In this document: piece after piece, positions 9,197-53,347 of the stretch
Position numbering within the stretch: position 1 is the stretch's first letter
Layout of the letters: every line of letters starts with the position of its first letter
Source: Adhaeribacter soli
GTDB lineage: Bacteria; Bacteroidota; Bacteroidia; Cytophagales; Hymenobacteraceae
Reading direction: 5' to 3'
Length of the DNA: 64,000 nucleotides
NCBI RefSeq assembly: GCF_008727925.1
Contig: NZ_VTWT01000009.1
Location: 1 to 64,000 of the forward strand
Translations under genes and position numbers: made by a program
Notes under the pieces: model-generated
Database searches by the model: none
Told to the model about the DNA's origin: nothing
Seen by the model: only the letters and a program-made list of their open reading frames with translations

Positions 9197-9320
9197 CCGT
9201 CATCTCGACGTCAGGAGAGATCCCATCAAGTTGGTAATACCTTTTATTCAGGACTTTCTTCTTTAATCCGAAAATTTGGCTTCAAGGAGCGTTTTGTTTT
9301 CTCCTTCTGCCGAGATGACT
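9197..9320. repeat. GTCATCTCGA element, copy 1
   Basis: The left end reads CGTCATCTCGACGTCAGG and the right end CGAGATGAC, giving imperfect terminal inverted repeats. The core contains ATCAAGTTGGTAATACC, which appears in the opposite orientation inside the copy at 47261-47361. The gap 8938-9380 is otherwise filled by the preceding repeat and holds no gene I can support. Confidence 0.65.
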
Positions 9321-9380: not shown

Positions 9381-10016
9381 TTGCAAAACAACTTCAACCG
9401 GATAGCTCCTTTTTACGACTTCCTGGCCAGACGCATCTTCGGCAAAGCCATTCAGAATTCCCAAACCTGGCTCCTGCCCTTCGTTCCCGAAAATGCCAAC
9501 GTCCTCATCATCGGCGGCGGCACCGGCTGGATCTTGACCGAATTCCTGAAACACACCAACTGCCGTTCGATCCTGTACCTGGAAGCCTCTGGGAAAATGC
9601 TGGAACTGAGCAAAAAACGGTATGATAAAGCCCAGAAAACCACCACCGATGTAGCATTCCGCCTCGGCACCGAAACCGTATTAAAGCCCGAAGAAACCTT
9701 CGATGTAGTTTTCACTGGCTTTCTGTTCGACCTTTTTCAACCCGAACCCTTACACGACTTAATGACCAGGCTGAACGCACACCTGAAGCCCGGCGGCAGT
9801 TGGCTGGTAGCCGACTTTGAGCCCAAAAACGCTACCAGTTTCTGGCAAAAAAGCCTGCTGAAAAGCATGATCCTGTTCTTTAAACTTACCGCCAACCTGC
9901 AGGCCAACGAGCTACCCGACCTGGAAAAAGAATTCGCCCACTTTCCTTTAAACCTTCAGCAGCAAAAGTTCTTTTATAAGAAATTGATTGCGGCCGGCGT
10001 TTACCGGAAACAGTAG
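9381..10016 (+). CDS. Class I SAM-dependent methyltransferase
   Basis: This 211-residue protein starts at a TTG codon (MQNNFNRIAPFYDFLARRIFG after initiation); no better ATG keeps the conserved N-terminus. The Rossmann motif I is NVLIIGGGTGWILTEFL, followed by an acidic YLEASGKMLE strand end and the motif IV-like FDVVFTGFLFDLF. This is a UbiE/COQ5-like small-molecule methyltransferase fold, but the substrate is unknown. It lacks a signal peptide and is presumably cytosolic. Confidence 0.82.
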   Translation: MQNNFNRIAPFYDFLARRIFGKAIQNSQTWLLPFVPENANVLIIGGGTGWILTEFLKHTNCRSILYLEASGKMLELSKKRYDKAQKTTTDVAFRLGTETVLKPEETFDVVFTGFLFDLFQPEPLHDLMTRLNAHLKPGGSWLVADFEPKNATSFWQKSLLKSMILFFKLTANLQANELPDLEKEFAHFPLNLQQQKFFYKKLIAAGVYRKQ

Positions 10017-10107: not shown

Positions 10108-11931
10108 ATGAAATTCCTGACCTGCCTTTTAGTTGCTTCCTTTTTCAGTTTAGAGCTTTTGGCGCAGACCGATACCCGCTATACGCTTGCCTTCCCGAAT
10201 GCCGTGCACCACGAAGCGCAGGTTACGGCCACTTTCTCCGGCATTAAAGCGCCGGTGCTGGAAGCGCGCATGGCCCGTTCCTCGCCGGGCCGGTATGCGC
10301 TGCACGAATTTGCCAAGAACGTGTACACCGTAAAAGCCGAAGACAGCAAAGGCAATCAACTGAAAATTACCCGGCCAAACCCGCACCAGTGGAACGTTTC
10401 GGGTCACGACGGTACCGTAAAAATAACCTACACCCTTTTCGGCGACCGCACCGACGGCACCTACGCCAGCATCGACGAAACGCACGCCCACCTGAACGCG
10501 CCGGCTACGTTCATGTACGCGCAGGGCTTCGAACAAAAACCTTCGTTTATAAAATTTGAGCTTCCTGCCGAAAAGAACTGGACAATTGCTACCCAATTGA
10601 AACCGGAAAATCAGCCCAACACGTATTCCGCACCCAATTTCCAGTACCTCATGGATTCTCCCGTTAAAATAGCCGATATGATGTGGCGCGAATGGCAGGT
10701 GCAGGACAAAGGCAAAACCAAAACGATCCGCTTTGCGCTCCACCACAACGGCACGGCTGCAGAATTCGATAAGTATGTGGAAGAAACCAGGAAAATCGTA
10801 AAAGAGGGACAAGCGGCATTCGGCGAACTGCCCGATTTCGATTTCGGCAACTACACCTTTATAGGCTGCTACATGTCCCACGCCGCCGGCGACGGCATGG
10901 AACACCGCAATTCTACGATCCTGACTTCACCACGCCCCTTAAAAACTTCCGCTTCCGATAACCTGGGTACCGTTTCGCACGAGTTCGTGCATGCCTGGAA
11001 CGTGGAACGCATCCGGCCGAAAAACCTCGAACCTTTCAACTTTGCCGATGCCAACATGAGCGATGCCCTCTGGTTTGCCGAAGGCGTAACGAACTACCTG
11101 GACGATCTGCTTCTTTGCCGTACCGGCGCCCTCAGTCAGGAAGATTATGCCAAAACCATAGGCAACAGCCTTAACTACTTCCTGCTGCTGCCGGGTAAAA
11201 ACTCATATTCGCCGGTGGAAATGAGCATTCAGGCGCCCTTTGTGGATGCCGCCCGTTCCGTGGACCCGACCAACCGCCTGAACACCTATGTGTCATATTA
11301 CAATTACGGCGACGTACTTGGCCTGGCCCTCGACCTGATGCTCCGTTCCCGGTACAACACTTCGCTGGATGCCTACATGCAATTGCTCTGGCAAACCTAC
11401 GGGAAGCCCGAAAAGCCCTACGACCTGCCGGAACTGGAACAGGCATTAGCCCAGCTCACCAAAAACGAAGCTTTCGCCAGTGAATTCTTCCAGAAACACG
11501 TTTACGGCCACGTATTACCCGATTTTAATGATTTGCTCCGGGAGGCCGGTTTTGAATTACGTGCTGCCAAACCTGGCGAAGCCTCCCTGGGATATGCCCC
11601 GCTCTCATTTTCCGGCAACCGCGCTACCCTGCAGACCGGCACCATCCTGGATTCGCCCCTTTACAAAGCCGGCGTAGAAAACGAAGATGTGCTGTTAAAA
11701 CTGGCCGGCAAAACTCTGAAAAGCGACCAGGACCTGAAAAGCCTCCTCAAGAAGCACAAGCCCGGCGATACAATAGAACTGGAGTTTGAGCAACGCGGCC
11801 AGCGCAAAACGGCTAAGATTACCCTGATCGAAAACCCGGCCGTAGAAGTGGTGGCCATAGAAAAAACCGGAAAACCCTTAACCGACAAAGCAAAGCAGCT
11901 AAGAAATGGATGGTTAAGCCCGAAGAGTTAA
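10108..11931 (+). CDS. M61 family metallopeptidase with PDZ domain
   Basis: This 607-residue exported protease has an N-terminal signal peptide ending near LLAQ at residue 20. A beta-sandwich domain follows, then the zinc site HEFVHAWN at residues 291-298 with the third ligand Glu near 325 (WFAEGVTNYLDD). A PDZ domain lies at about residues 510-590. M61 (glycyl aminopeptidase-like) enzymes act in the periplasm or at the surface. Full family length and intact metal ligands argue for an active enzyme. The gene stands alone. Confidence 0.93.
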   Translation: MKFLTCLLVASFFSLELLAQTDTRYTLAFPNAVHHEAQVTATFSGIKAPVLEARMARSSPGRYALHEFAKNVYTVKAEDSKGNQLKITRPNPHQWNVSGHDGTVKITYTLFGDRTDGTYASIDETHAHLNAPATFMYAQGFEQKPSFIKFELPAEKNWTIATQLKPENQPNTYSAPNFQYLMDSPVKIADMMWREWQVQDKGKTKTIRFALHHNGTAAEFDKYVEETRKIVKEGQAAFGELPDFDFGNYTFIGCYMSHAAGDGMEHRNSTILTSPRPLKTSASDNLGTVSHEFVHAWNVERIRPKNLEPFNFADANMSDALWFAEGVTNYLDDLLLCRTGALSQEDYAKTIGNSLNYFLLLPGKNSYSPVEMSIQAPFVDAARSVDPTNRLNTYVSYYNYGDVLGLALDLMLRSRYNTSLDAYMQLLWQTYGKPEKPYDLPELEQALAQLTKNEAFASEFFQKHVYGHVLPDFNDLLREAGFELRAAKPGEASLGYAPLSFSGNRATLQTGTILDSPLYKAGVENEDVLLKLAGKTLKSDQDLKSLLKKHKPGDTIELEFEQRGQRKTAKITLIENPAVEVVAIEKTGKPLTDKAKQLRNGWLSPKS

Positions 11932-25803: not shown

Positions 25804-26662
25804 GAGCCTGTTTAAATATTAGAGGAATAAGATAAGGGGGAGCTATCAGGCGTAAATAAAGGTGCAAACCTAATTTAATTTACGATGGCTTATTCAACCG
25901 ACCTGACAGACTCCCAATGGTATATAATCGAGCAAGTAACATTTGAGAAGCGGAAACGGCAGCACAGTATGCGTTTGATCTGCAACCTGTTGTTTTACTT
26001 ACTTAAAACGGGTTGCCAGTGGCGGGAGTTGCCTGAGCGTGGGATAAAATGGCAGGTGGTTTATTATTATTTCCGTAAGTGGCAGGCTTTAGGAGTAGTG
26101 GAGCAGCTGCATGAACTGCTTTACAAGCAAAACCGGCAACGAAGTAAAAGGAACAGTTTTCCTACGGCTGCGGTACTTGACAGTCAATCGGTGAAAACAG
26201 CATTGGCAACCGATGCAGTAGGCTATGATGCGGGCAAGAAAGTGAAAGGCAGAAAGCGACATCTGCTGGTCGATACGCAAGGCTATGTGTTGGCTGTAAG
26301 AGTAAGCTCGGCAGCAGCAACAGACCGGCAAGCAGCTCAGGAAGTAATAAGAAAGGCCGATAAGCTGCAGATATATAAACTAAAGTTGGTATACGCTGAT
26401 GGAGGTTACCGGGGGAAATTAATAAACCAGGTAAAGAAACAGTTTGGTATTCAGCTCAACATTGTCAAAAAGAAAGCTAAGGCAGGTTTCAAAGTGTTGC
26501 CGAGGCGGTGGGTGGTAGAAAGAGCCTTTGCCTGGCTAGCCAAATGCCGACGCCTGAGCATCGATTATGAAAGACTAACTGCCACCTCAGAAGCTTTTAT
26601 CCTCCTAGCCATGTATAGGTTAATGCTAAACCATTATAAAAATTGAATATTTAAACAAACAC
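25804..26662 (+). mobile_element. Complete IS5-family (IS1031-like) insertion sequence
   Basis: The element is 859 bp. Its 17-bp terminal inverted repeats, GAGCCTGTTTAAATATT on the left (25804-25820) and GTGTTTGTTTAAATATT on the right (complement of 26646-26662), agree at 14 of 17 positions. Both sides are bordered by TTA (25801-25803 and 26663-26665), a target duplication of the TNA type known for the IS1031 group. It carries one intact transposase gene. It inserted into a minus-strand integrase-like gene, whose reading frame resumes across the empty site. Confidence 0.9.
25885..26646 (+). CDS. IS5-family transposase
   Basis: This 253-residue DDE transposase is in a single frame, unlike IS elements that need a frameshift. 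The N-terminal DUF4096-like part (YSTDLTDSQWYIIEQ, LKTGCQWRELP, YYYFRKWQ) precedes the catalytic core with VLDSQSVKTA, YADGGYRGKL and RRWVVERAFAWLAKCRRL holding the acidic residues. No disruption is seen, so the enzyme is probably active. It cuts and reinserts the surrounding element. The stop codon lies at the inner edge of the right terminal repeat. Confidence 0.95.
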   Translation: MAYSTDLTDSQWYIIEQVTFEKRKRQHSMRLICNLLFYLLKTGCQWRELPERGIKWQVVYYYFRKWQALGVVEQLHELLYKQNRQRSKRNSFPTAAVLDSQSVKTALATDAVGYDAGKKVKGRKRHLLVDTQGYVLAVRVSSAAATDRQAAQEVIRKADKLQIYKLKLVYADGGYRGKLINQVKKQFGIQLNIVKKKAKAGFKVLPRRWVVERAFAWLAKCRRLSIDYERLTATSEAFILLAMYRLMLNHYKN

Positions 26663-36765: not shown

Positions 36766-38253
36766 TTATTGCGGCTCGGTAGTTTCGTTGCCTTCCCGGT
36801 CGAAGGTGCGGTTATTGCGCCGGTTCCGGTCTTTTACCCCCTGGAACTTCTGGCTGCTCCTGCGGCGCCATTCGTTATCGGTAATTTCGCCTTTGGCCGT
36901 GGAATGCACCAGGGCATAATTGCTGTTCCCCAGGTTCTCCTGCAAAAACACAAAGATCCGGTTGCTTTGGTTTTCGAGCTGGTAGTAATGCCAGATCTGG
37001 TAAGGCTTGGAATCGAAGTTGTTTACCGGGCGGTTAATATCGTCGCGTTCGTTGCTGATCTTGTTCGGCTGACCATATTGCAGGTAAACCCGGCCCCGAT
37101 CGGTTTCATATCCGTGGAAGGTCAGGTTCCGGAAGTTTTTTTCTACGTATTCGATGCGCTGCTTGTAATCGAGCCAGGCCTGCACCGGGCTGGCGGCCGA
37201 ACGGCGCTGCCAGAACGTGTACAGGTAATTCTGCTTCTGCAATACGGTTCCTTTTTTAGTTAACGATTCAATGGTACTTCCTTCGGCCGAATTCGATAAA
37301 GGACGCAAAGACATCAAATAAAGATCCAGTTTGGTTGAATCCAGGTCCGTAGAAAAAGCCGGCGGCAAGTTTGATCCGGGAGTGGCAGCGGCTACCGTTC
37401 CGTCCGGATTAACTTCTGCCGGGTTGCTCCGCTGAATAAAGCGGCGCTGGGAGGCAATGGTTTTGTTTTCGGCGTTTCGCACTTCAATAAACAGCTCGTA
37501 GTTGCCGGAAGCTACCGTACTGATGTCTACATCCTGCATAAACACGTTTACCGACGCGGTTTTCTGAACTTTCTGTCCGCCAACGGTCAGCTTGGCCATA
37601 TTGTCGCGGGTAGGCACCAGGCGGTAAAAAACTACCACCGATTTATCTTTACCCACTACGGCTTCGGTATTGTAAATTTCCAGGTAGAATTTCAGCCGGT
37701 CGAAACCTTTCGGGTAAAAACTGGAAACGTAACTCACCAGCTTCATGCCGCTTTTGGTGTAGTCATTTTTCTCGGCAGACTTTTCGTAGCTTTCCAGCAG
37801 CTGGATATCACTGATCTCTACTTTGCTTTTATCGAAGTTTACCTGCAATGGCACCTCAATATCGCTGGCCGGTTTGGCAGAATTTACGTCTTTGGCCTTC
37901 CCGGCGAACGTAAAGTTTCCGTTCTTCACGAAATAGCGTTTCTGGAGGTTAAAAGGCACCATCAAACCAGCGGTATCTGCTACCAGCGGCGATTTTAAAT
38001 TAAGCTTATCGAAATATTTTACTCCGGTAGAATCGGAGATCTGAAGCTCCAGGGCCACCACTGCCTGGTAACCGCCGGGTACTTTTTTATATACTACCGA
38101 ATTCCCGTTTACCGAGCAGTAAAGCTCTACCATGTTCTGGGTTTCAGAGGCCTTGAACCGTACCAGATCGAAGGTGGCATCGAGCTGCTGAGCAACGGCT
38201 GAAGTAAAAAGGGTAGCAAAAAGAGCTAAAAAAGTAAAACGTTTAAAGAACAT
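36766..38253 (-). CDS. GWxTD domain-containing exported protein
   Basis: This 495-residue exported protein has a signal peptide ending near VAQ (residue 21). The central part is a beta-rich region. At about residue 390 lies GYETDRGRVYLQYGQPNKI, the GWxTD domain core with Tyr in place of the usual Trp. The tail is basic and Arg/Asn-rich. GWxTD proteins are Bacteroidota-specific and of unknown function. Start codon and stop are clean. The WbqC gene starts divergently 72 bp away. Confidence 0.85.
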   Translation of the reverse strand: MFFKRFTFLALFATLFTSAVAQQLDATFDLVRFKASETQNMVELYCSVNGNSVVYKKVPGGYQAVVALELQISDSTGVKYFDKLNLKSPLVADTAGLMVPFNLQKRYFVKNGNFTFAGKAKDVNSAKPASDIEVPLQVNFDKSKVEISDIQLLESYEKSAEKNDYTKSGMKLVSYVSSFYPKGFDRLKFYLEIYNTEAVVGKDKSVVVFYRLVPTRDNMAKLTVGGQKVQKTASVNVFMQDVDISTVASGNYELFIEVRNAENKTIASQRRFIQRSNPAEVNPDGTVAAATPGSNLPPAFSTDLDSTKLDLYLMSLRPLSNSAEGSTIESLTKKGTVLQKQNYLYTFWQRRSAASPVQAWLDYKQRIEYVEKNFRNLTFHGYETDRGRVYLQYGQPNKISNERDDINRPVNNFDSKPYQIWHYYQLENQSNRIFVFLQENLGNSNYALVHSTAKGEITDNEWRRRSSQKFQGVKDRNRRNNRTFDREGNETTEPQ

Positions 38254-38325
38254 ACGCCTGCAATAAATAACTTAAAGTTACGTAAAATAAGTAATATCGC
38301 AATCCGGAAGTTCCCCGACCCGCTT

Positions 38326-38922
38326 ATGATTTTACTATCCGAATTGCATTACCACCCCAGCATCCAGTTTTTTCAGCAAGCCTTTAAAGCCGACGAAGTT
38401 TTAATTGAAGCGCGCGAAAACTATATTAAACAAAGTTACCGCAACCGCTGCCACATTTTAACCTCGCAGGGGCCTCTGGCTTTAACCGTTCCGGTAAAAG
38501 GCGGCAACAGCAAAACGCTTATTACCGAACTGGAAATAGATTACGAACAAAAGTGGGTAAACATGCACTGGCGCACCATCCGGTCGGCCTACGGAAATGC
38601 GCCTTATTTCGAGTTCTACGCCGATTATTTCGAAGCCATTTACAACCGCAGGCCCCAATTTTTGTTCGAGTTGAACTTGGAATTTTTAAAGCTATATATT
38701 AAATTTTTGAAATTTTCAAAACCCCTGCGTTTTACTAACCGTTATGATGAAAAATACGGGTCAGAGGTGCTGGATCTCCGGTCAACGATCCATCCGAAGA
38801 AGAAAACTGACAGCCTGGCAATAAAACCGTACAATCAGGTATTTGGCAAACAATTTGTACCGGACCTGAGTATACTCGACCTGCTGTTCAACCAGGGCCC
38901 GGAAGCGGTACACTACTTGTAG
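38326..38922 (+). CDS. WbqC-like family protein
   Basis: This 198-residue protein matches the WbqC family: LLSELHYHPSIQFFQQAFKADEVLIEARENYIKQSYRNRCHIL at the start (shown in parts: a conserved N-terminal His/Tyr region, then SYRNRC), LTVPVKGG, W...R.I..AYGNAPYFEFYADYFEAIY in the middle, and FLFELNLEFL. WbqC members are associated with surface polysaccharide clusters, with an unproven enzymatic role. Here no such cluster is present; it is followed 119 bp later by clpC. Confidence 0.85.
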   Translation: MILLSELHYHPSIQFFQQAFKADEVLIEARENYIKQSYRNRCHILTSQGPLALTVPVKGGNSKTLITELEIDYEQKWVNMHWRTIRSAYGNAPYFEFYADYFEAIYNRRPQFLFELNLEFLKLYIKFLKFSKPLRFTNRYDEKYGSEVLDLRSTIHPKKKTDSLAIKPYNQVFGKQFVPDLSILDLLFNQGPEAVHYL

Positions 38923-39041
38923 AAGCCTCTGATTTCCAGACTTGAACAATAAAAGCCGAAAGGGTGTTAATACTAACAGGCGAAAACCGGAACCAGGGTT
39001 AACGCTACTTAAAAACCAGATTACTTTACTAAATACAATAC

Positions 39042-41627
39042 ATGGAAGCTAAATTCTCAAACCGAGTGAAGGAAGTGATCTCCCTCAGCCGCGAAGAAGC
39101 GATCCGGCTGGGTCATGATTACATCGGCACCGAACACCTGCTCCTGGGCATGATCCGCGAAGGGGAAGGTACGGCCATTGCTTTGCTCAAAAAACTCGGC
39201 GTTTCCATCGAAGAATTAAAATATTCCATCGAACAGGCAACCCGCAATACCGCTTCGCCGAATACTAACATTACCGGGAGTATTCCGCTAACCAAGCAAA
39301 CCGAAAAAGTACTGAAAATAACGTACCTGGAGGCCAAGATCTTCAAAAGCGATATTATCGGGACCGAACATTTGCTCCTTTCAATCCTCCGGGATGAAGA
39401 CAATATTTCATCACAAACTCTAGCCAAATTCAACGTGAACTACGAAGCTATCAGAGATTCCTTAGACTATCAGCAGAACAACCCGATTGCTTCTTCTGAT
39501 ACGGACGACAACGACGACGACAAGTTATTCGGCAGCAGCAGCTCTTCCCGTTCGGGCAGCGCCGCTTCTAAAAAGCCGGGCGAAAAATCCAGAACTCCGG
39601 TTCTCGATAATTTCGGCCGCGACTTAACCAAACTGGCCGAAGAAGACAAACTGGACCCGATCGTTGGCCGTGAAAAAGAAATTGAGCGGGTGGCCCAGGT
39701 ACTGAGCCGTCGTAAGAAAAATAACCCGATCCTGATCGGTGAACCGGGCGTTGGTAAAACCGCCATTGCCGAAGGTCTGGCCTTAAGAATCATTCAGAAG
39801 AAAGTTTCGCGCGTGCTGTTCAACAAACGCGTAGTTACGCTGGACCTTGCTTCTCTGGTAGCCGGTACCAAATACCGTGGTCAGTTCGAAGAGCGGATGA
39901 AAGCCGTAATGAACGAGCTGGAAAAATCGCCGGACGTAATTCTGTTCATCGATGAGCTTCATACCATTGTAGGTGCCGGTGGCGCTTCCGGTTCTTTGGA
40001 TGCTTCCAACATGTTCAAACCGGCTTTGGCCCGTGGCGAAATTCAATGCATTGGTGCTACCACTTTGGACGAATACCGTCAGTACATCGAGAAAGATGGT
40101 GCGTTGGCCCGTCGTTTCCAGATCGTAATGGTAGACCCGACTACGCCGGAAGAAACCATCGAGATCCTGCACAACATTAAAGATAAATACCAGGATCACC
40201 ACCACGTAACCTACACCGACAAGGCGATCGAGGCTTGCGTGAAGCTGTCTGACCGTTACATGAGCGACCGTTTCTTACCGGATAAAGCAATCGATATTCT
40301 GGATGAGGCTGGTGCCCGCGTACACATCAACAACATTGTGGTGCCGGACGATATCCTGAAACTGGAAGAATCTATCGAGAACATTAAGGTAGAGAAAAAC
40401 CAGGTGGTGAAATCTCAGAAATACGAAGAAGCTGCCCAGTTGCGCGATAAAGAGAAAAAACTGATCGACCAGCTGGATAAAGCCAAAGCGAACTGGGAAG
40501 AAGAAACCAAGAAAAAACGCTATTCCGTGAAGGAAGAAAACGTGGCCGAAGTAATTGCCATGATGACGGGAATTCCGGTACGCCGCGTGGCCCAGAACGA
40601 AAGCCAGAAGCTGCTCAACATGGGCGAAGAGCTGAAAGGCAAAGTGATCGGTCAGGATCGTGCCATTTCGCAATTGGTAAAAGCCATTCAGCGTACCCGC
40701 GTTGGTCTGAAAGATCCAAAAAAACCAATTGGTTCGTTCGTATTCTTAGGCCCTACCGGGGTTGGTAAAACCGAGTTAGCCAAAGTGCTTGCCACGTATC
40801 TGTTCGACAAAGAAGATTCTCTGGTTCGGATCGATATGAGTGAGTACATGGAGAAATTCAGCGTAAGCCGCTTGGTGGGAGCGCCTCCGGGCTACGTGGG
40901 TTACGAAGAAGGTGGTCAGCTTACCGAGAAGATCCGCCGCAAGCCGTATTCTGTGGTATTGCTGGATGAGATCGAGAAAGCGCACCCGGATGTTTACAAC
41001 CTGCTGTTGCAAGTGCTGGACGATGGTATCCTGACCGACGGTTTAGGCCGCAAGGTTGACTTCCGGAACACCATCATCATCATGACATCCAACATTGGCG
41101 CCCGCGACCTGCAGGACTTTGGAGCCGGTATCGGTTTCGCAAGCAAAGCCAAACAGGACAACATGGATGAGATCATGAAGTCTACCATTCAGAATTCCCT
41201 GAAGAAAACCTTCTCGCCGGAATTCCTGAACCGTCTGGACGACGTGATCGTGTTCAACTCGCTGGCCAAAGAAGATATCTTCAAGATCATCGATATTTCG
41301 CTCAGCAAGCTGTACAAACGCATCGAAACTCTGGGTTACCACATTGAGCTTACCGATAAAGCAAAAGACTTTGTGGCCGAAAAAGGATACGATCCGAAAT
41401 ACGGCGCCCGTCCGCTGAACCGCGCGATCCAGAAGTACATCGAAGATCCGATTGCCGAAGAGATCCTGAAAGCGGAAATGGCGCAAGGCGACATTATTGT
41501 AGCCGACTACGAAGAAGGAAAAGAACAACTGACCTTCTCTTCGAAAAAATCGGACAAGCCTGCTCCAAAGAGCGCCTCAGACGAACTGCCGGAAACAACC
41601 GGAACAGATCCGAAGGCTTCGGAATAA
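39042..41627 (+). CDS. clpC: ATP-dependent Clp protease ATPase subunit ClpC
   Basis: This 861-residue AAA+ unfoldase has two Clp-N repeats in residues 1-145, a linker rich in Asp and Ser (about 150-180), and a first ATPase domain with Walker [14 protein letters not shown] near residue 233. A UVR-type coiled coil near 450-475 ([16 protein letters not shown]) precedes a second ATPase domain with Walker [13 protein letters not shown] near residue 570. The acidic C-terminus ends TGTDPKASE. ClpC unfolds substrates for ClpP in the cytosol. ClpP is not in the window. Confidence 0.97.
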
Positions 41628-41643
41628 TCTGAGTTATGAATAA

Positions 41644-41672
41644 TAAAAAAGCTGCCTATTTGGCAGCTTTTT
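41644..41672 (+). terminator. Terminator after clpC
   Basis: Twelve-base arms (AAAAAAGCTGCC and complement) with a 5-nt loop are followed by TTGTTTT. It starts 17 bases past the stop codon and could also serve the convergent HEPN-like gene. Confidence 0.88.
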
Positions 41673-41730
41673 TTGTTTTAAATGGTAGGGTTTTGGGTTG
41701 GAAAAGTCAGGTTTTGTAAGGAGTTCTCGT

Positions 41731-43125
41731 CTAATGGATTTTTATATTTAGTTTCCATTCTTTTATTCCCATTAAGTTTAAAATAAGTATTCCGCTAATT
41801 CGATACAATAAGATATTTGCTTGTCTAAGTTGTTCGGGGTTTATTTGGTCAATGCTACCATGCGTAATGTTGTTCCGAAGCTTTTTCAAATCGTCAATTT
41901 TTACAGGAAACGTTTTGGTATCTAAGTTTTGGCTTTCCAAAAACGAAACCAATTGATTCTTCATTGGTTTATTTTGTAAAAATGTTTGTACGCTGTGCCA
42001 ACGCTTTTTAAAATCTTCGTGTTCTTTCTTGTCTATTGTTTCCAATAGTTTTTCCAGTGCTTCATTTTGTTTTGCTTTTGTTTGTTTCTTATCGAGGGCA
42101 GACGTAAATCTTACGTTGTCTTGTTTTTGTTTGTCACAAGTTTCAATGATGTTGTAGCGAATTAAAAACGTAGAATAACTATCAACTAAAAGCGATTGAT
42201 TAAACAAAGCAATTGCCTTTGAAAGTATCGCAAAATTTTTTACAGTCTCTTTTTGCCAACTTGCTTGCAGGAACTTATTGAAATTCCAATAGATTTCAAA
42301 ACCCCAAAGATTTCCGCTCGTGTCAAGGAAATTTTTCTGCTCAATGTTTTTTATCGTAATTGTATTTTCGGGCAAATGTATTCTGCTAAGAATGTAATCA
42401 ATCTTAATGTGGTGATAAAATGAAGCCAACTTTAAAACTACATCACCATAAAAAACAGCTTCTTTTTCTGTAATTCCTTTTTTGTATTTGAATTGAATTT
42501 TGGGCTCTTTCGTAACTGTGGCAACTCTTTCTTTGCGATTGTCTTTTGCAACAAAATTAAATTCTGGACGAAAAGATGACTTTCCTAGTTTGTAAAACAT
42601 AGTAGAGCTTTTCATTCTTCCAATGTCAAATTTGCCATCATTCCTTAAAAAGGATGTTGGAGACAAAAATGAATAAAAAGGCTCAACAACTCTAAAACCT
42701 TTGTCAGCAAAGTAAAATTCGGCTGTATGGTTTTCGCCTTCAACAGGATCCCAATAAAACTTTACAGTGTCAATTTTTATTTTAATGTATCTTTTTCTGT
42801 CTTCGTAATACCCAGAACTATCTGTACAACTAAGTAGTTTTGCTTCCGATAAATCAACTCTTTGTAAGCGTTCGTTTTTGTAGTTTTTCGTCACTTCTAC
42901 TTTTAAGAATGAACCGAATTTTTTCCAATCAACTTTGCTTGCCCAATCCATCAACTTTTCGCCGAAATAGGTCTTGTCATCAAAGAAAATTCTAAGTTCA
43001 ATTTTATTTTTCTTTGTGTACAAATGAGCGTGGTGAACCTTACTAACTTCAGTCCCTCTTTTTATAGAGTATAGATTAAAATCAATATTTAAAAATTCAA
43101 TATCTAAACAATGGTAATTACTCAT
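41731..43125 (-). CDS. ApeA-like protein with C-terminal HEPN motif
   Basis: This 464-residue protein is in no family I can name with certainty. About the first 280 residues alternate strands and charged turns (IELRIFFDDKTYFGEKL, RYIKIKIDTVKFYWDP). From about 290 on it is helical and ends with LKKLRNNITHGSID. There Arg417 and His422 form the RxxxxH motif of HEPN ribonucleases. A beta-rich N-terminus plus C-terminal HEPN is the layout of ApeA-type anti-phage proteins, but overall similarity cannot be judged here. Sample lines count to about a third GC against the mid-40s in its neighbours, suggesting recent transfer. It stands alone between clpC and a core metabolic gene. Confidence 0.6.
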   Translation of the reverse strand: MSNYHCLDIEFLNIDFNLYSIKRGTEVSKVHHAHLYTKKNKIELRIFFDDKTYFGEKLMDWASKVDWKKFGSFLKVEVTKNYKNERLQRVDLSEAKLLSCTDSSGYYEDRKRYIKIKIDTVKFYWDPVEGENHTAEFYFADKGFRVVEPFYSFLSPTSFLRNDGKFDIGRMKSSTMFYKLGKSSFRPEFNFVAKDNRKERVATVTKEPKIQFKYKKGITEKEAVFYGDVVLKLASFYHHIKIDYILSRIHLPENTITIKNIEQKNFLDTSGNLWGFEIYWNFNKFLQASWQKETVKNFAILSKAIALFNQSLLVDSYSTFLIRYNIIETCDKQKQDNVRFTSALDKKQTKAKQNEALEKLLETIDKKEHEDFKKRWHSVQTFLQNKPMKNQLVSFLESQNLDTKTFPVKIDDLKKLRNNITHGSIDQINPEQLRQANILLYRISGILILNLMGIKEWKLNIKIH

Positions 43126-43328
43126 ACAAGATCAACCTTATCTATTTTCGTCTAAAGTTATAATAATCTTTATCCTGGGCAGCTTATTTTCAGTTTTGTG
43201 AAGGGTTAGCGAAGCTTTCTAATGATAACAGAAGCTCAATAATTTCCCAAAACGCTACCCAATTCCCCCTAAAAACCCCTGCCCCTGAAAAAACAGCCTT
43301 AAAAAATAGTATTGCCGCCGGACTTTAA

Positions 43329-43336
43329 TAAATTTG
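43329..43336 (+). promoter_or_regulatory. Possible -7 element of the carboxylase gene
   Basis: TAAATTTG fits the Bacteroidota -7 consensus and lies 28 bp before the ATG at 43365. A TTG at 43312 is closer than the usual -33 distance, so only the -7 part is supported. Confidence 0.4.
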
Positions 43337-43364
43337 AGGTCGAATTAAGCAATCAGATTTTACC

Positions 43365-44924
43365 ATGCCACATACCGTTACCGGATCCAAAGTAGAAATT
43401 TTAGAGAAAAAGAATGCCGAAGCCCTCTTGGGCGGCGGCGAAGACCGTATTGCTGCTCAGCACAAAAAAGGCAAACTAACGGCCCGCGAACGCATTAACC
43501 TGCTGATGGACGAAAACTCTTTCGAAGAGATCGGCAAGTTTGTAATGCACCGCTCCAAAGATTTCGGCCTCGATAAGGAATACTATTTAGGCGATGGCGT
43601 GGTAACCGGCTACGGTACCGTAAACGGCCGTTTGGTATACGTTTTCTCACAGGATTTCACCGTTTTCGGCGGTTCGCTTTCTGAAACCCACGCGGAAAAG
43701 ATCGTGAAGATCATGGACCTGGCGATGAAAAACGGTGCACCAGTAATTGGTCTGAACGACTCCGGCGGAGCCCGTATCCAGGAAGGCGTAGTTTCACTGG
43801 GCGGTTATGCCGATATTTTCTATAAGAACACCTTAGCTTCCGGCGTTATTCCGCAACTTTCGGCTATTATGGGTCCTTGCGCGGGTGGTGCGGTTTATTC
43901 CCCGGCCATTACCGACTTTATTCTGATGGTTGAGAATACGTCGTACATGTTCGTAACGGGACCAAACGTAGTAAAAACCGTAACCCACGAAAACGTAACT
44001 TCCGAAGAACTTGGCGGCGCGAGCACGCACAGCGCGAAAAGCGGCGTAACGCATTTCTCCTGTGCCAACGAAGTAGAGTGCATCAACAACATCAAAGCTT
44101 TGCTGAGCTACATGCCGCAGAACTGCGAAGATACCGCGCCGATGCTGCCTTACGAAGCCCAGGAAGACGAAAGCCGTCCGGCGCTTGACAACATCATCCC
44201 GGAAAACGCGAACCAGCCGTACGACATGCGCGAAGTAATTGAAGGCATTATCGATGCGGATTCGTTCATGGAAGTGCACAAAAATTTTGGCGAGAACATT
44301 GTAGTTGGTTTTGCAAGACTTGCCGGCCGCAGCATTGGCATTGTGGGTAACCAGCCAGCCGTTCTGGCCGGCGTTCTGGACATCAACGCCAGCACTAAAG
44401 CTGCCCGCTTCGTCCGTTTCTGCGATTGCTTCAACATTCCGCTTTTAGTTTTAGAGGACGTACCAGGCTTCCTGCCGGGCACCGACCAGGAATGGCGCGG
44501 CATTATTACGAACGGCGCAAAACTGCTGTATGCCTTCTCCGAAGCTACCGTTCCACGCATTACCGTAATTACCCGCAAAGCCTACGGCGGCGCTTACGAC
44601 GTAATGAACTCCAAGCACATCGGCGCGGACATGAACTACGCCTGGCCTTCAGCCGAAATTGCAGTAATGGGCGCTAAAGGTGCAGCCGAAATTATTTTCA
44701 AACGCGAAATTGCCGCTGCTGCCGATCCGGAAGCGAAGCTGGCCGAAAAAGTGGCTGAGTACCAGGAGAAATTTGCCACGCCTTACCGGGCAGCGCACCG
44801 CGGCTTCATCGATGAGGTAATCATGCCTTCCGAAACCCGCACCAAACTGATCAAGGCCTTCAAGATGCTGGAAAACAAAGTAGACAAACTGCCGCGTAAA
44901 AAGCACGGGAACATTCCGTTGTAA
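43365..44924 (+). CDS. Acyl-CoA carboxylase carboxyltransferase subunit (propionyl-CoA type)
   Basis: This 519-residue protein is the beta subunit of a biotin-dependent acyl-CoA carboxylase. Family blocks include [83 protein letters not shown] and AYGGAYDVM. It transfers carboxyl from carboxybiotin to propionyl- or related acyl-CoA, feeding methylmalonyl-CoA. The biotin carboxylase subunit is not in the window. Family length is normal. Confidence 0.94.
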
Positions 44925-44947
44925 TTTCTTTTCAATAAAGTTATAAA

Positions 44948-44984
44948 AGGCTTCGGAAGGTTACTTCTGAAGCCTCCTTTTTTT
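44948..44984 (+). terminator. Terminator after the carboxylase gene
   Basis: An 11-bp stem with one G-U pair (AGGCTTCGGAA with TTCTGAAGCCT) is followed by a run of eight T. The next gene starts at the end of that run, so its transcript must be made by read-through or a promoter inside. Confidence 0.75.
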
Positions 44985-46055
44985 ATGGCACCATCCCGGA
45001 TCTATTCACTTGACTACCTGCGGGGATTAACCGCGTTCGGCATCATGTTCTTCCATTTCACCTCCTGGACCCTCGGCAGCTATTCGGCGGAAGATTTTCC
45101 GGGACGGATCGGCTTGTACGGGGTGTCGGTTTTTTACGTACTCAGCGGTCTTACCCTTTTCCTGATCTATTACGAAAATCTGAAACCAACCTGGCGCTCG
45201 CTTACCACCTTTGCCATAAAACGCACCTTCCGGATCTTTCCTTTGCTATGGCTCACGGTAGGTTTAACCTTGCTGCTTAATCCGAAACTGTTCGATCCGC
45301 GTTTGCTTTTCCTGAGTTTGACCGGGCTTTTTGGGTTTCTGGAGCCATCGAAAGGATTAGGAACGGGTGTATGGTCTATTGGGAACGAATTGGTTTTTTA
45401 TGCTTTTTTCCCATTCCTGCTGCTGCTGGCCCGGTATAACCGGCTCTTATTCCTGCTGATCTCGGGATTTCTAATGGCTATCTGTGTTTATTTTGCCTTC
45501 TTTGTTCTCCGGGCAAACGAACCGCTGGGGCCGCAATGGCCCGATTATGTAAATCCACTGAATCAACTAATTTTATTTGTTGGCGGCCTGGTGCTGGGTA
45601 GCTTCACGGTAAACGGAAACTTCGGAAAACCAAATGCGGTAATAGCGACAATCGTTATTGCTGCCGCCCTCCTTTTATTCATTTTTTACCCGGCAGCCGG
45701 CGACCGCATTGTGCTCGTATCGGGCTGGAACAGAATAATTTTCCTGGCTCTATCGTTTACCATTTGTGCAACCGTTTACCTGGCCAATTACCAGCTACCG
45801 TATTTCCTGCACAAGCCTTTGGCATTTACCGGCGAAATTTCGTACAGTTTATACCTGCTTCACCCTATTGTTTATACCATAGTATTTGGGGCAAACAAAA
45901 TTCTTAAACTTGGCGTATCTCCTGTCTGCCTTCTGCTCCTGGCCTTTATTGGGGCTTTTGCAGTCAGTTTTCTGGTTTTCCGTTATTTCGAAACCCCAAT
46001 GATAAATGCTGGCAAAGCGCTCTCGGCAAAGTTACCGGCAGCCACTTCCGTCTAA
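44985..46055 (+). CDS. Acyltransferase 3 family membrane protein (OafA-like)
   Basis: This 356-residue protein begins IYSLDYLRGLTAFGIMFFHFTSW, the usual Arg and His motif of acyltransferase family 3. It has ten or so membrane helices, with further landmarks YGVSVFYVLSGLTLFL, RIFPLLWL and EISYSLYLLHPIV. These enzymes move acyl groups onto sugars or other acceptors outside the cytoplasm. The target here is unknown, and no glycan cluster is nearby. Confidence 0.9.
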   Translation: MAPSRIYSLDYLRGLTAFGIMFFHFTSWTLGSYSAEDFPGRIGLYGVSVFYVLSGLTLFLIYYENLKPTWRSLTTFAIKRTFRIFPLLWLTVGLTLLLNPKLFDPRLLFLSLTGLFGFLEPSKGLGTGVWSIGNELVFYAFFPFLLLLARYNRLLFLLISGFLMAICVYFAFFVLRANEPLGPQWPDYVNPLNQLILFVGGLVLGSFTVNGNFGKPNAVIATIVIAAALLLFIFYPAAGDRIVLVSGWNRIIFLALSFTICATVYLANYQLPYFLHKPLAFTGEISYSLYLLHPIVYTIVFGANKILKLGVSPVCLLLLAFIGAFAVSFLVFRYFETPMINAGKALSAKLPAATSV

Positions 46056-46126
46056 AAAACGGATTGAATTTTCTTTTTTATAACCTTTGTTCTTCCTAAA
46101 TTCAAGCCCCATTCACCCCAATTGAT

Positions 46127-47197
46127 ATGAGAAAAGAATCTTTCGAATTTTTAGAGAAATATTTAAATAACGCCTCTCCTACCGGTTTCGAAGCGGAAGG
46201 TCAGAAACTGTGGCTCGAATACCTTAAACCATACATCGACGAATATTTTGTAGACACCTACGGCACCGTGGTTGGGGTAATTAACCCGGAAGCAGAATAC
46301 AAAGTGGTAATAGAAGCGCACGCCGACGAGATTTCGTGGTTTGTGAATTACATTACCGACCAGGGCTACATTTACGTGCGCCGCAACGGCGGTTCCGATG
46401 CCCTGATCGCCCCAAGCATGCGCGTAAACTTCCACACGCGCAAAGGTTTGGTAAAAGGCGTTTTCGGCTGGCCCGCCATTCACGTGCGCAAAGTGGAAAA
46501 CGACAAAGCCCCTACCATTGAAAACATCTTCATCGATTGCGGTGCCAGCTCCAAAGCCGAAGTAGAAGAAATGGGCATCCATGTGGGCACGGTAGTTACT
46601 TTCACCGACGAAATGATGGTGATGAACGATAAGTATTACGTGGGCCGCGCCCTGGACAACCGCATCGGTGGTTTCATGATTGCCGAAGTTGCCAGAATGC
46701 TACATGAAAACAAGAAAAAACTACCCTTCGGTCTTTACATCGTGAACGCTGTTCAGGAAGAAATCGGTTTGCGCGGCGCGGAAATGATCGCCCACCGCAT
46801 TAAGCCGGACGTAGCCATCATTACCGACGTTTGCCACGACACGCAAAGCCCTATGTACGAGAAAAAGACCAACGGCGACCAGCATTGCGGCAAAGGCCCT
46901 GTTTTAACCTACGGCCCGGCCGTGCAAAACAACCTGCTGCAAATGATCATTGATACGGCTCAGAAAAAGGAAATCCCGTTCCAAAGAGCTGCCGCTACCC
47001 GCGCCACCGGCACCGATACCGATGCTTTCGCTTATTCTTCTGAAGGTGTTGCTTCCGCTTTAATTTCCCTTCCGCTGAAGTACATGCATACTACCGTAGA
47101 AACGGTGCATAAAGAAGACGTGCAAAACGTAATTAAGCTGATGTACGAGTTCGTGATTCAGCTGGAAGCCGGCCACGATTTCCGGTATCTGAAGTAA
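46127..47197 (+). CDS. M42 family metallopeptidase
   Basis: This 356-residue cytosolic aminopeptidase has metal and catalytic sites typical of M42: EAHADEISW, GRALDNRIGG, VQEEIGLRGA, ITDVCHDTQSP and KYMHTTVETVHKEDV. These cover the two-zinc ligands and the general-base Glu. M42 enzymes form large complexes that trim peptides from the N-terminus; some relatives are cellulases/endoglucanases, but the peptidase is the safe call. Length is typical. Confidence 0.93.
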   Translation: MRKESFEFLEKYLNNASPTGFEAEGQKLWLEYLKPYIDEYFVDTYGTVVGVINPEAEYKVVIEAHADEISWFVNYITDQGYIYVRRNGGSDALIAPSMRVNFHTRKGLVKGVFGWPAIHVRKVENDKAPTIENIFIDCGASSKAEVEEMGIHVGTVVTFTDEMMVMNDKYYVGRALDNRIGGFMIAEVARMLHENKKKLPFGLYIVNAVQEEIGLRGAEMIAHRIKPDVAIITDVCHDTQSPMYEKKTNGDQHCGKGPVLTYGPAVQNNLLQMIIDTAQKKEIPFQRAAATRATGTDTDAFAYSSEGVASALISLPLKYMHTTVETVHKEDVQNVIKLMYEFVIQLEAGHDFRYLK

Positions 47198-47207
47198 CCC
47201 CACCCAA

Positions 47208-47230
47208 CCCTCCCCTAATTCAGGGGAGGG
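47208..47230 (+). terminator. Terminator after the M42 gene
   Basis: Nine-base arms CCCTCCCCT/AGGGGAGGG with a 5-nt loop precede CTTTTTTT. It starts 11 bases after the stop codon. Confidence 0.85.
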
Positions 47231-47260
47231 CTTTTTTTATTGCATTCTCTTGGCTTTCAA

Positions 47261-47361
47261 CCGTCATCTCGACGTCAGGAGAGATCCCCTGAATAAAGTA
47301 GTGAAGCCAGAATAAAAGGTAATACCAACTTGATGAGATCTCTCACTCCGTTCGAGATGAC
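47261..47361. repeat. GTCATCTCGA element, copy 2 with inverted core
   Basis: The left end CGTCATCTCGACGTCAGGAG matches the 9.2 kb copy in orientation, and the right end TTCGAGATGAC closes imperfect terminal repeats. The core reads AATAAAAGGTAATACCAACTTGAT, the reverse complement of the core at 9197-9320. The rest of the 47198-47529 gap shows no gene; 47455-47520 has repeated AATCGTA-like words. Confidence 0.7.
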
Positions 47362-47529
47362 AAGCATTGGGAAAGAAACATTCGTCTAAATTTGTAGCAT
47401 AGTCTTTCCCTTGGTCTGTGAGGCACAAACCAGAGCATCACTGTTCGTTTTACATGGTATAGTTTTACCAACAAAACTCCATACCGGAAAATCGTAGATC
47501 GTAAATCCAAAATCGTAAATCAAAACCTA

Positions 47530-48312
47530 GTGCCTCACTTCACAGACCAGCTTCAAAACAGTATCTTTTTACCGGAAAAACCCAGACGGATCGTTTCGCT
47601 CGTGCCTTCGCAAACGGAACTGCTTTTTGATCTGGGGCTGGAAGAGGAAGTGGTGGGCATTACCAAATTCTGCATTCATCCGGCCGAAAAAGTAAAAACC
47701 AAAACGAAGATCGGCGGCACCAAGAATTTCAACTTCGAAGCAATCGATGCGCTGCAGCCTGATCTAATCATTGGCAACAAAGAAGAAAACTACCAGGAAG
47801 GCATAGAAAAACTGGCTCAAAAGTACCCGGTCTGGATGAGCGATATTTTCACCCTGGAAGATGCGCTGGATATGATCCGGAAAGTGGGTGAACTCACCGG
47901 AATGGCTCAAAATGCTTTAGAAATTGTCGGGAAAATTGCAGCCAGATTTGCCAGTCTGTTGAAGCCTGAATCGGAGCTTACTGCAGCCTATTTCATCTGG
48001 AAAAATCCGTATATGGTCGTTGGCAACAACACCTTTATCGATGATATGCTTCAGCGTTGCGGTTTCCGGAATGTGTTTGAAAACGAAACGCGGTATCCGG
48101 AAATCAGTATCGAAATGCTGCAAAAAAGTAAACCGGAAGTAATTTTGCTTTCTTCCGAACCCTACCCTTTCAAAGAAAAACACCTGCAGGAATTTCAGGA
48201 AATGCTGCCTGAAGCAAAGATCATGATCGCGGACGGGGAAATGTTCAGCTGGTACGGCAGCCGCTTATTGCAAGCTCCCGCGTATCTTCAGAAATTACTT
48301 TCCGAAATCTGA
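47530..48312 (+). CDS. Helical-backbone metal/cobalamin receptor (BtuF-like), no signal peptide
   Basis: This 260-residue protein starts at GTG (47530) and begins MPHFTDQLQNSIFLPEKPRRIVSLVPSQTE when split into blocks. It shows the BtuF-type features RIVSLVPSQTELLFDLGL, DLIIGNKEENY, VVGNNTFIDDML and PEVILLSSEPYPF. BtuF and related proteins bind cobalamin or metal chelates for ABC importers in the periplasm. This one has no signal peptide or lipobox, so if it binds corrinoid it may act in the cytoplasm. No permease or ATPase gene is adjacent. Confidence 0.85.
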   Translation: MPHFTDQLQNSIFLPEKPRRIVSLVPSQTELLFDLGLEEEVVGITKFCIHPAEKVKTKTKIGGTKNFNFEAIDALQPDLIIGNKEENYQEGIEKLAQKYPVWMSDIFTLEDALDMIRKVGELTGMAQNALEIVGKIAARFASLLKPESELTAAYFIWKNPYMVVGNNTFIDDMLQRCGFRNVFENETRYPEISIEMLQKSKPEVILLSSEPYPFKEKHLQEFQEMLPEAKIMIADGEMFSWYGSRLLQAPAYLQKLLSEI

Positions 48313-51998: not shown

Positions 51999-52583
51999 CT
52001 ACTTCTCTAATTTAGCTACGGAAGTGGCTTTCAGGCGGCTCAGCGTTTCGGGCTCCATTTTCAGGTAAGAGGCCACGTACCGTTGGGGTATTAATTGCAA
52101 TAACTTCGGACTACGTTTTAATAACCGTTCGTAGCGTTCCTGGTTCGAAGCAAGATGCAATTCTACTTCCCGCTCCATCATGCCCAAAAGCGCGGCTTGC
52201 GTAAGCTGGTACCACACATCTTTGAATTTCGGCAGCGTTTCCAGCAGGTTTTTCCAGTCGGAATAATTCAGGGAAAGGAGCTCGGTTTTCTTGATGGCCT
52301 GCACGTAAAACTCCGATGGCTTGCCGGTAATAAAGGAAGGATAGGCAATTAAAATGGTACCGGGATAACCAAAACCTACACAAATTTCCTTGCCTTTGTC
52401 GAGGTAATGAATGGTTTGGGTGCCTTCCAGTACAAAATGTACCTGGGTTTCCACTTCGCCGGCCCGTACCATGAATTCGCCCCGGTTAAAGGTTTGCCGC
52501 CGGTTCCAGACGCTGGTAATTTGTTCCAGTTCGGAAGCGGTGAATGGGGCGAGGTTGGAGAGGAAATTGATTAAGGGTTCCAA
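51999..52583 (-). CDS. Crp/Fnr family transcriptional regulator
   Basis: This 194-residue regulator has a cyclic-nucleotide-binding-type beta roll (about residues 15-125: RQTFNRGEFMVRAGEVETQVHFVLEG) and a C-terminal winged helix (LLQLIPQRYVASYLKMEPETLSRLK). The phosphate-binding motif of true cAMP receptors is not obvious, as in many Bacteroidota members. Its start overlaps the TonB-like gene end by 13 bp, so the two are coupled. Its targets are unknown. Confidence 0.92.
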   Translation of the reverse strand: MEPLINFLSNLAPFTASELEQITSVWNRRQTFNRGEFMVRAGEVETQVHFVLEGTQTIHYLDKGKEICVGFGYPGTILIAYPSFITGKPSEFYVQAIKKTELLSLNYSDWKNLLETLPKFKDVWYQLTQAALLGMMEREVELHLASNQERYERLLKRSPKLLQLIPQRYVASYLKMEPETLSRLKATSVAKLEK

Positions 52584-53347
52584 AAATAAGATGGATTGGA
52601 GGTTTTTCTACTAAATTGGATTGGTAAGATATATCTTACTTTTACTCTTTTCCCATTTTGAATCCCGGGATTAAACTTTAATAAATTAGCTAATCTCAGA
52701 GCTTCTTTATCAGCATAGGTATTTAATCCTTTTAAAATTACTGGTTCTTTTACTTTTCCATTCTCATCTACAATAAATTGAATAATTACAGTACCTTGAT
52801 AAGTAAGAAGAATTTGAGAGTAATTAATTTTCTGGTCAAAAAAAATTTTCAAACCTGTAGCGCCACCTTCTTTAAATTCAGGCATTGTTTCCACAAAATC
52901 ATAAACCTTTTCCGAATTAAAATTATTTTCAGATGATTTTTTAATAACTGGTGTTACAAAACCTAATAATGCAGGCGGCTGATTGGATTTGCAGGAATTA
53001 TTAGGTGGCTTGCTAGTTATCGATTTGTTTGTCTGGGCATCAGCCTCTTTGCTCAAAAAGCTTAACCCTAACAGCACAAATACCGAACTAAAAACCCGCC
53101 TGAATGAAAATCTGTTCTGCACCGGCTGCTCCAACTGATATTCATAAAACCTGCCGCAAACTTTCCCCTCCTGCTTTGCCAATATTTCCCGAATTTCAGC
53201 ATCCGTTTTTTGGGTAAAATCTACTACTGTTTTCTGACAGCTGCCACAAAACCTCCCTTGCGCACACGGCGACATTTTATTCCAATCCTTCGGACAATTG
53301 AAGGAAAGGCTGGGCTTTAGAAAATTTTCGGAATGGTTTGCCATCAA
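52571..53347 (-). CDS. TonB-like energy transducer with N-terminal Cys cluster
   Basis: This 258-residue protein has Cys18, Cys28, Cys34 and Cys37 in an N-terminal cytosolic-looking part (FNCPKDWNKMSPC..., FCGSCQKTVVDFT), suggesting a metal- or redox-binding knuckle. A hydrophobic segment follows at about residues 80-106, then a linker and a C-terminal TonB domain (IVDENGKVKEPVILKG-like, ADKEALRLANLLKFNPG, VRYILPIQFSRK). A second Met at residue 2 could be the start. TonB proteins pass inner-membrane energy to outer-membrane receptors; the Cys part may tune this. ExbB/ExbD are not nearby. Confidence 0.88.
   Translation of the reverse strand: MMANHSENFLKPSLSFNCPKDWNKMSPCAQGRFCGSCQKTVVDFTQKTDAEIREILAKQEGKVCGRFYEYQLEQPVQNRFSFRRVFSSVFVLLGLSFLSKEADAQTNKSITSKPPNNSCKSNQPPALLGFVTPVIKKSSENNFNSEKVYDFVETMPEFKEGGATGLKIFFDQKINYSQILLTYQGTVIIQFIVDENGKVKEPVILKGLNTYADKEALRLANLLKFNPGIQNGKRVKVRYILPIQFSRKTSNPSYFWNP

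Follow-up and report, generated by a model that had tools for sequence, protein, structure and literature searches.

A rare AT-rich gene of Adhaeribacter soli encodes a probable diverged HEPN protein of the ApeA clan with relatives in restriction operons

The window, the whole 64,000-nt stretch of Adhaeribacter soli DNA that was analysed, carries a gene at 41731-43125 that an earlier note, made from the sequence alone, had described as a lone AT-rich HEPN gene of ApeA-like layout. The gene is real, a 464-aa ORF opening with ATG, once its strand is corrected to minus; the plus-strand frame across the same interval is packed with stops (Table 1). To its left lies the gene of an 861-aa protein of the ClpC type (Clp_N, AAA_2, ClpB_D2-small) and to its right that of a carboxyltransferase (Carboxyl_trans), so that Pfam confirms the placement between clpC and a core metabolic gene. 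The upstream gap (43126-43364) has no ORF of at least 20 aa lying wholly inside it, Rfam gave no match in 38000-48000, and 4 promoter-like sites were found where 4.5 were expected.

Table 1. Position and strand of the features described in the text, in window coordinates
Feature	Position	Strand	Basis or description
Putative ApeA-clan HEPN gene (P0001)	41731..43125	-	464 aa, ATG start, open frame
RNNITH, putative catalytic motif, residues 417-422	41860..41877	-	R417 and H422 invariant in 12/12
YNIIE, residues 324-328	42142..42156	-	E328 invariant in 12/12
Exchanged segment, residues ~331-412 (variant A)	41890..42135	-	Identity contrast in six close homologues
Residues ~195-237 (profile columns; to ~240), probably homologous to end of ApeA_NTD1	42415..42543	-	hhalign
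N-terminal residues 1-195, no detectable family	42541..43125	-	No Pfam match; low-confidence model with strands
Bidirectional terminator-like hairpin between clpC and HEPN gene	41645..41673	.	12-pair stem, T runs on both strands
Inserted or replaced segment, approximate extent	41710..43240	.	Flanks align with same-genus genome G001 to ~41710 and again from ~43240

The HEPN gene has a GC content of 31.8% (GC3 30.2%), compared with 46.9% for the window, and is the lowest in GC among 33 non-overlapping window ORFs of at least 200 aa (mean 48.3%, sd 4.5). The low GC claimed for the gene thus stands, whereas the 43% given for a neighbour was too low, 1-kb windows wholly within the two flanking genes having 49-52%. 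The second most AT-rich long ORF in the window, at 52571-53344 on the minus strand, has 36% GC and a TonB_C domain, and an IS4/5-type transposase gene (DDE_Tnp_1, DUF4096) lies at 25885-26646 on the plus strand.

To place the gene in its genomic setting, the carboxyltransferase gene was taken in 18 relatives, 12 from the host family and 6 at the level of the order. In 7 of the 12 family relatives (G002, G003, G006, G007, G008, G011 and G012) clpC adjoins the carboxyltransferase gene with no intervening ORF of at least 60 aa; elsewhere the junction holds a Uma2 ORF (G010), one 714-aa gene of ordinary GC (G005) or four genes of ordinary GC (G009). In the same-genus genome G001, whose carboxyltransferase and clpC are 94% and 96% identical to the window copies, it holds an AT-rich module of two genes (L049:5869-9568), possibly a defence system. 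One encodes a protein of 619 aa that matches DUF559 below the cut-off; the other encodes an AAA_11/AAA_12 helicase of 612 aa, for which PADLOC gave MkoA at E 2e-52. The cargo taken up at this junction therefore differs between two congeneric species. Altogether the junction is empty or otherwise filled in 11 of the 12 family relatives; in the twelfth, G004, the stretch covered stops short of clpC. None of the six order-level relatives has clpC within 1.5 kb of the carboxyltransferase gene, and the junction is thus a feature of the family.

The HEPN gene itself has no match anywhere in the genomes of the 12 family relatives, which excludes its presence in all close relatives at normal GC. Its low GC and a site that is empty or differently filled in relatives support the gene being a recent arrival at the clpC/carboxyltransferase junction, as had been supposed. 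The edges of the inserted segment share no exact direct repeat of at least 9 bases and no transposase lies beside the gene in the window, leaving transposon insertion unsupported.

Searches at increasing distance showed that the gene is rare and patchily distributed. A protein search of 98 relatives gave 5 matches, the gene's own included. With profile A2, a homologue was found in 4 of 204 host-family genomes (own, G019, G056 and G873), of which the last three share only 20-25% identity with the window protein. Eight matches came from 390 order genomes (own included; one marginal, one frameshifted) and two from 295 class genomes (own included), and among 395 phylum genomes searched with the narrower profile A1 the own gene alone matched; G001, the one same-genus genome covered, has no homologue. 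The nearest homologues, 61-74% identical, are those of G067, G078, G497, L006 (a Paludibacter MAG contig) and L007 (partial, cut by the contig end), and they come from outside the host family, in the same order or further away. Searches of viral contigs, phages and plasmids yielded no relative of the window protein, the relatives at L052 and L013 also gave no match there as queries, and profile A3 matched nothing in viral contigs. Mobile genes lie near two relatives, an IS200-like gene in G067 and a tyrosine integrase gene in G056, and the copy in G714 (L026:8657-9918) is broken by a frameshift. This copy and that of G592 (a 47-aa frame with stops) were left out of alignments; the 13 loci compared below for context include G714, omit G592 and count L002, L008 and L014, a single locus, once.

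The residues R417, H422, G423 and E328 are the same in all 12 aligned sequences (the window protein and the partial L007 included), so the R-x4-H motif is not a product of chance. It reads RNNITH near the C-terminus, with the numbering of R417 and H422 as first reported. E328 sits in Y-[NS]-I-x-E and is proposed, by analogy, as the HEPN acidic residue. Over residues 1-330, dN was below dS in 10 of 10 pairs (dN 0.13-0.27, dS 0.74-1.88), indicating that the protein has been kept; the same held over residues 411-464 in 7 of 10 pairs, those with a computable dS.

Structure prediction was less informative. AlphaFold models drew on five sequences, and the full-length model, with a mean pLDDT of 51.8, lends weak support to the beta-rich N-terminus that had been proposed, its strands being predicted at low confidence. 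The model of residues 290-464 is all helical, likewise at low confidence (mean pLDDT 52.6). Foldseek gave no match at E <= 0.001 with the full model or the HEPN part; the weak best matches of the full model were mostly Hcp-type beta barrels (E ~1e-3 and above), which we do not rely on because of the low model quality. In a VIA structure comparison of the HEPN-part model, in which 310 chains were aligned, human SUGP1 ranked first (Z 7.4, rmsd 2.9, 94 aligned), and the HEPN-MNT structure 8xeh reached Z 7.0 (rmsd 3.3, 106 aligned). Eight of ranks 2-10 we take, partly by their titles, to belong to the HEPN superfamily: three HEPN toxins (Z 7.0-6.7, rmsd 3.3-4.4, 106-109 aligned), Csm6 (6tug; Z 6.4, rmsd 4.4, 108 aligned), 1wty, the sacsin HEPN domain (3o10; Z 6.0, rmsd 3.5, 106 aligned), AbiV (9bj7; Z 6.0, rmsd 4.3, 108 aligned) and a HepT complex. 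Since Z scores of 6-7 are common for helical models, the matches of this low-confidence helical model to HEPN structures are a pointer, not proof.

Family libraries did not classify the protein directly. Pfam hmmscan found no family at E <= 10, no cut-off was passed in Pfam or PADLOC, and PDB sequence searches gave nothing relevant. When HEPN_Apea (PF18739) was searched across the whole own genome, the top match was the window gene, at 19.0 bits (E 0.0055) against 14.2 for the next and below the family cut-off of 24.4 bits; in a control, sub-cut-off matches at E <= 1 occurred in 3 of 14 well-known genomes. Four of the 11 A3 members matched the model at E <= 1 (18.5-22.8 bits, so that the best relative also stays below the cut-off), and the other seven gave no match. 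At E <= 0.001 the own genome gave nothing for ApeA_NTD1 (PF18862), and neither the window protein nor the relatives examined matched it.

Profile-profile comparison was more sensitive. A PF18862 search of 296 phylum genomes gave 13 proteins, 11 of them over the cut-off. Nine were aligned (A5), all but L065 scoring above the cut-off; left out were L055 and L062 (no ORF listed), L063 (a fragment of 46 aa) and L064 (a sub-cut-off match whose listed ORF lacks R-x4-H). Against these nine, 11 sequences of the window family gave E 9.6e-5 (probability 58%) and 12 gave E 1.8e-5 (probability 78%), in an alignment collinear over residues ~200-460 that puts R on R and H on H. The whole-length score was 49.5 compared with 20.2 for the best of 100 column shuffles, none of which was as good. 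The HEPN halves alone scored 28.9 (best shuffle 20.2) and the N-terminal halves alone 26.2 over ~43 columns (hhalign, E 0.0085; best of 100 shuffles 16.1). Taken with the shuffles, this result places the gene in the ApeA clan, outside both Pfam models, and supports the view that the window protein is probably a diverged HEPN member of that clan. The HEPN, ApeA-like assignment of the earlier note is thereby upheld, both by the best PF18739 match of the genome and by the collinear homology. Its further suggestion of a new sensor fused to HEPN holds only in part: residues 1-195 match nothing, but residues ~195-240 align with the end of ApeA_NTD1, so that the sensor half appears at least partly ApeA-like.

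Passages of PMC3710099 describe ApeA as a HEPN family found in restriction-modification operons in epsilonproteobacteria, with an N-terminal domain of ~300 aa that is mostly beta, and place HEPN proteins other than the ApeA type in restriction operons as well. Among the 13 loci of the window family, restriction genes share the operon in three (L006, L011 and L052), and one has a fragment (G067). In L006 a 4-base ATGA (2130-2133) contains both the end of a type ISP/IIG enzyme gene and the start of the HEPN gene. In L011, the locus of G078, an ATGA overlap at 9586-9589 is in frame with the C-terminal part of a broken, related type ISP enzyme, of which three pieces are 75-78% identical and one is 29% identical. 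At L011:5281-9589 this gene is split, between its methylase and specificity halves, by a YhcG-type PDDEXK nuclease gene, and it carries a frameshift near 9250. In L052, the locus of G873, the HEPN gene begins 49 bases after hsdR (gap 10617-10665), in an operon that also holds hsdS, a PDDEXK_4 gene and an ORF that, from its sequence, we take to be hsdM. The fragment in G067, downstream of the HEPN gene, is of a methylase, matches Eco57I at 25.9 bits against a cut-off of 25.3, and gave no tblastn match to type ISP queries.

No adjacent restriction gene was recognised at the other 9 of 13 loci, the window included, as judged from ORF lists and in part by Pfam and by tblastn with type ISP and YhcG proteins. 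The statement that the gene has no partner therefore fits the window, where no restriction-modification genes are adjacent, and does not extend to the three relatives in restriction operons. The own genome encodes one type ISP enzyme (PF18135) elsewhere, 24-25.5% identical to the partner type over the longer matches, and on this sequence comparison it is not of the same kind as the coupled partners. Its locus (L069:6594-13479, contig C11) comprises ORFs of 1246 and 382 aa, and beside the enzyme, on the opposite strand, lie two AT-rich ORFs of 412 and 197 aa (32% GC). At L009:2349-3520 we noted two ORFs downstream of a HEPN relative of 37% identity, one of 193 aa with no Pfam match and one of 196 aa with a PADLOC PDC-S70 match and a sub-cut-off PIN match. 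A limited literature search found no paper on the combination of HEPN and type ISP proteins.

Comparison of the close homologues revealed an exchanged segment between the two catalytic motifs, with edges that are sharp near residues 331 and 412. The window protein, G067, G497 and L007 carry variant A, and G078 and L006 carry variant B. In these six homologues, identity over residues 331-410 is 62-71% within variants and 16-25% between them, whereas all six are 68-83% identical over residues 201-330 and 69-83% over 411-464. G078 is the nearest to the window protein across residues 1-330 (72% and 83%), yet the two are only 25% identical in the segment, a pattern that makes recombination with a diverged allele look likely. 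The variants are weakly homologous, each variant HMM scoring members of the other, which argues for exchange with a diverged allele and not for an unrelated insert. The window protein shares 78-80% identity with the other A copies over residues 411-464 and 74% with G078, so the exchanged stretch may extend past 412.

Both variant-B copies (G078 and L006) lie behind type ISP enzymes. Among the four variant-A copies, no restriction gene was recognised beside the window gene or G497, G067 is followed by the methylase fragment, and the contig of L007 does not reach its upstream side. The link of variant B to type ISP enzymes is only suggestive, as it comprises two loci, with common descent as a confounder. 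It is conceivable, if doubtful, that the HEPN family is wired to restriction through a cassette at ~331-412 that sets trigger or partner specificity and is swapped between coupled and stand-alone life. Coupled copies would then detect what restriction produces, or its failure, and so tie the cutting of DNA to a shutdown by RNA cleavage.

The reading that we favour, with a probability of roughly 0.78, is that the window gene is a single-gene anti-phage system of the abortive-infection type, an ApeA-clan HEPN ribonuclease that halts infected cells; RNase activity, phage defence, a dimer, a tRNA target and the trigger are what we infer for the window protein. The N-terminal sensor half, a diverged ApeA relative, would hold the C-terminal HEPN endoribonuclease (E328, R417, H422) inactive until a phage-caused signal relieved the block on infection. 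The HEPN domains, presumably paired, would then cleave RNA of the cell, by analogy most likely in the anticodon loops of tRNA, and growth would stop. The gene would travel as small AT-rich cargo between core genes, and its restriction-coupled relatives probably form a second line triggered by the failure or activity of restriction. According to the title of a preprint (doi 10.64898/2026.01.26.701840) in the reference list of PMC13405049, ApeA is reportedly activated by deoxydinucleotides; if this extends to the window protein, the DNA degraded in the course of infection or restriction would naturally serve as the trigger, and the coupling to restriction would make sense.

HepT, RnlA and similar HEPN toxins act in toxin-antitoxin pairs, and by this parallel the window protein might be a toxin with an antitoxin that is absent, not recognised as such or made of RNA; of its relatives, L007 and G589 have HTH/IrrE-like or HTH and DUF4160 genes nearby. 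We consider this highly improbable, since the ORF lists of the relatives hold no shared small partner, neither a whole ORF of at least 20 aa in the upstream gap nor an Rfam match in 38000-48000 was found, and the N-terminal half of ~300 residues is far larger than that of HepT-type toxins. A protein that keeps the HEPN fold but has lost RNA cleavage, either a scaffold or a decaying passenger, would fit the frameshifted relative in G714, but the invariance of R and H in 12 of 12 sequences and the excess of dS over dN across residues 1-330 in 10 of 10 pairs leave it with almost no likelihood.

The restriction operons suggest a further alternative, in which the HEPN ribonuclease is an extra subunit of a restriction-modification system, silenced by the enzyme and freed by phage anti-restriction, and the window copy is an orphan whose partner has been lost. 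The ATGA overlaps with type ISP enzymes in L006 and L011, the 49-base gap after hsdR in L052 and the methylase fragment downstream in G067 all speak for such an arrangement, and PMC3710099 provides, in the passages concerned, a precedent in the model of PrrC as a guard of its type I restriction system. This alternative is nevertheless unlikely to apply, as 9 of 13 loci have no recognised adjacent restriction gene, the fragment in G067 went unmatched by type ISP queries in tblastn, and the PF18135 enzyme of the own genome shares just 24-25.5% identity with the partner type. An orphan without its inhibitor would also be expected to be toxic or decayed, but the window frame is intact.

Read as a single-gene anti-phage ribonuclease, the window gene is a new branch of the known ApeA kind and not a new principle. 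It adds to the ApeA clan a rare branch that the versions of Pfam, NCBIfam and PADLOC searched leave unclassified. The family also offers natural pairs, stand-alone versus restriction-coupled copies and segment A versus segment B on otherwise similar proteins, that allow testing of what activates restriction-linked HEPN nucleases, and one core-gene junction holds different AT-rich, defence-like cargo in two congeneric species.

Among known systems, ApeA is the closest in build. Both are single proteins of similar length (the nine compared have 408-497 aa), with a long N-terminal half, a C-terminal HEPN domain with R-x4-H and collinear profile homology over residues ~200-460, and both occur in restriction operons, for ApeA in epsilonproteobacteria according to passages of PMC3710099. 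Unlike ApeA, the window protein falls under the cut-offs of PF18862 and PF18739, its residues 1-195 have no detectable relation, relatives of it are tied to restriction systems of type ISP and type I, and its family shows the exchange at 331-412. The PrrC and RloC anticodon nucleases are HEPN ribonucleases able to sit in a restriction operon, as the window family does in L052, L006 and L011, whereas the window protein has no ABC-ATPase match (Pfam, E <= 10) and lone copies of its family have no recognised restriction partner. Csm6 and other CARF-HEPN proteins resemble it through weak PADLOC matches on the HEPN part (window protein E 0.0043, residues 345-436; G497 E 8.9e-4, residues 332-434), while the N-terminal half has no PADLOC or Pfam match, although a diverged CARF domain could escape detection. 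On the HEPN side, homology appears to favour ApeA over Csm6/CARF-HEPN.
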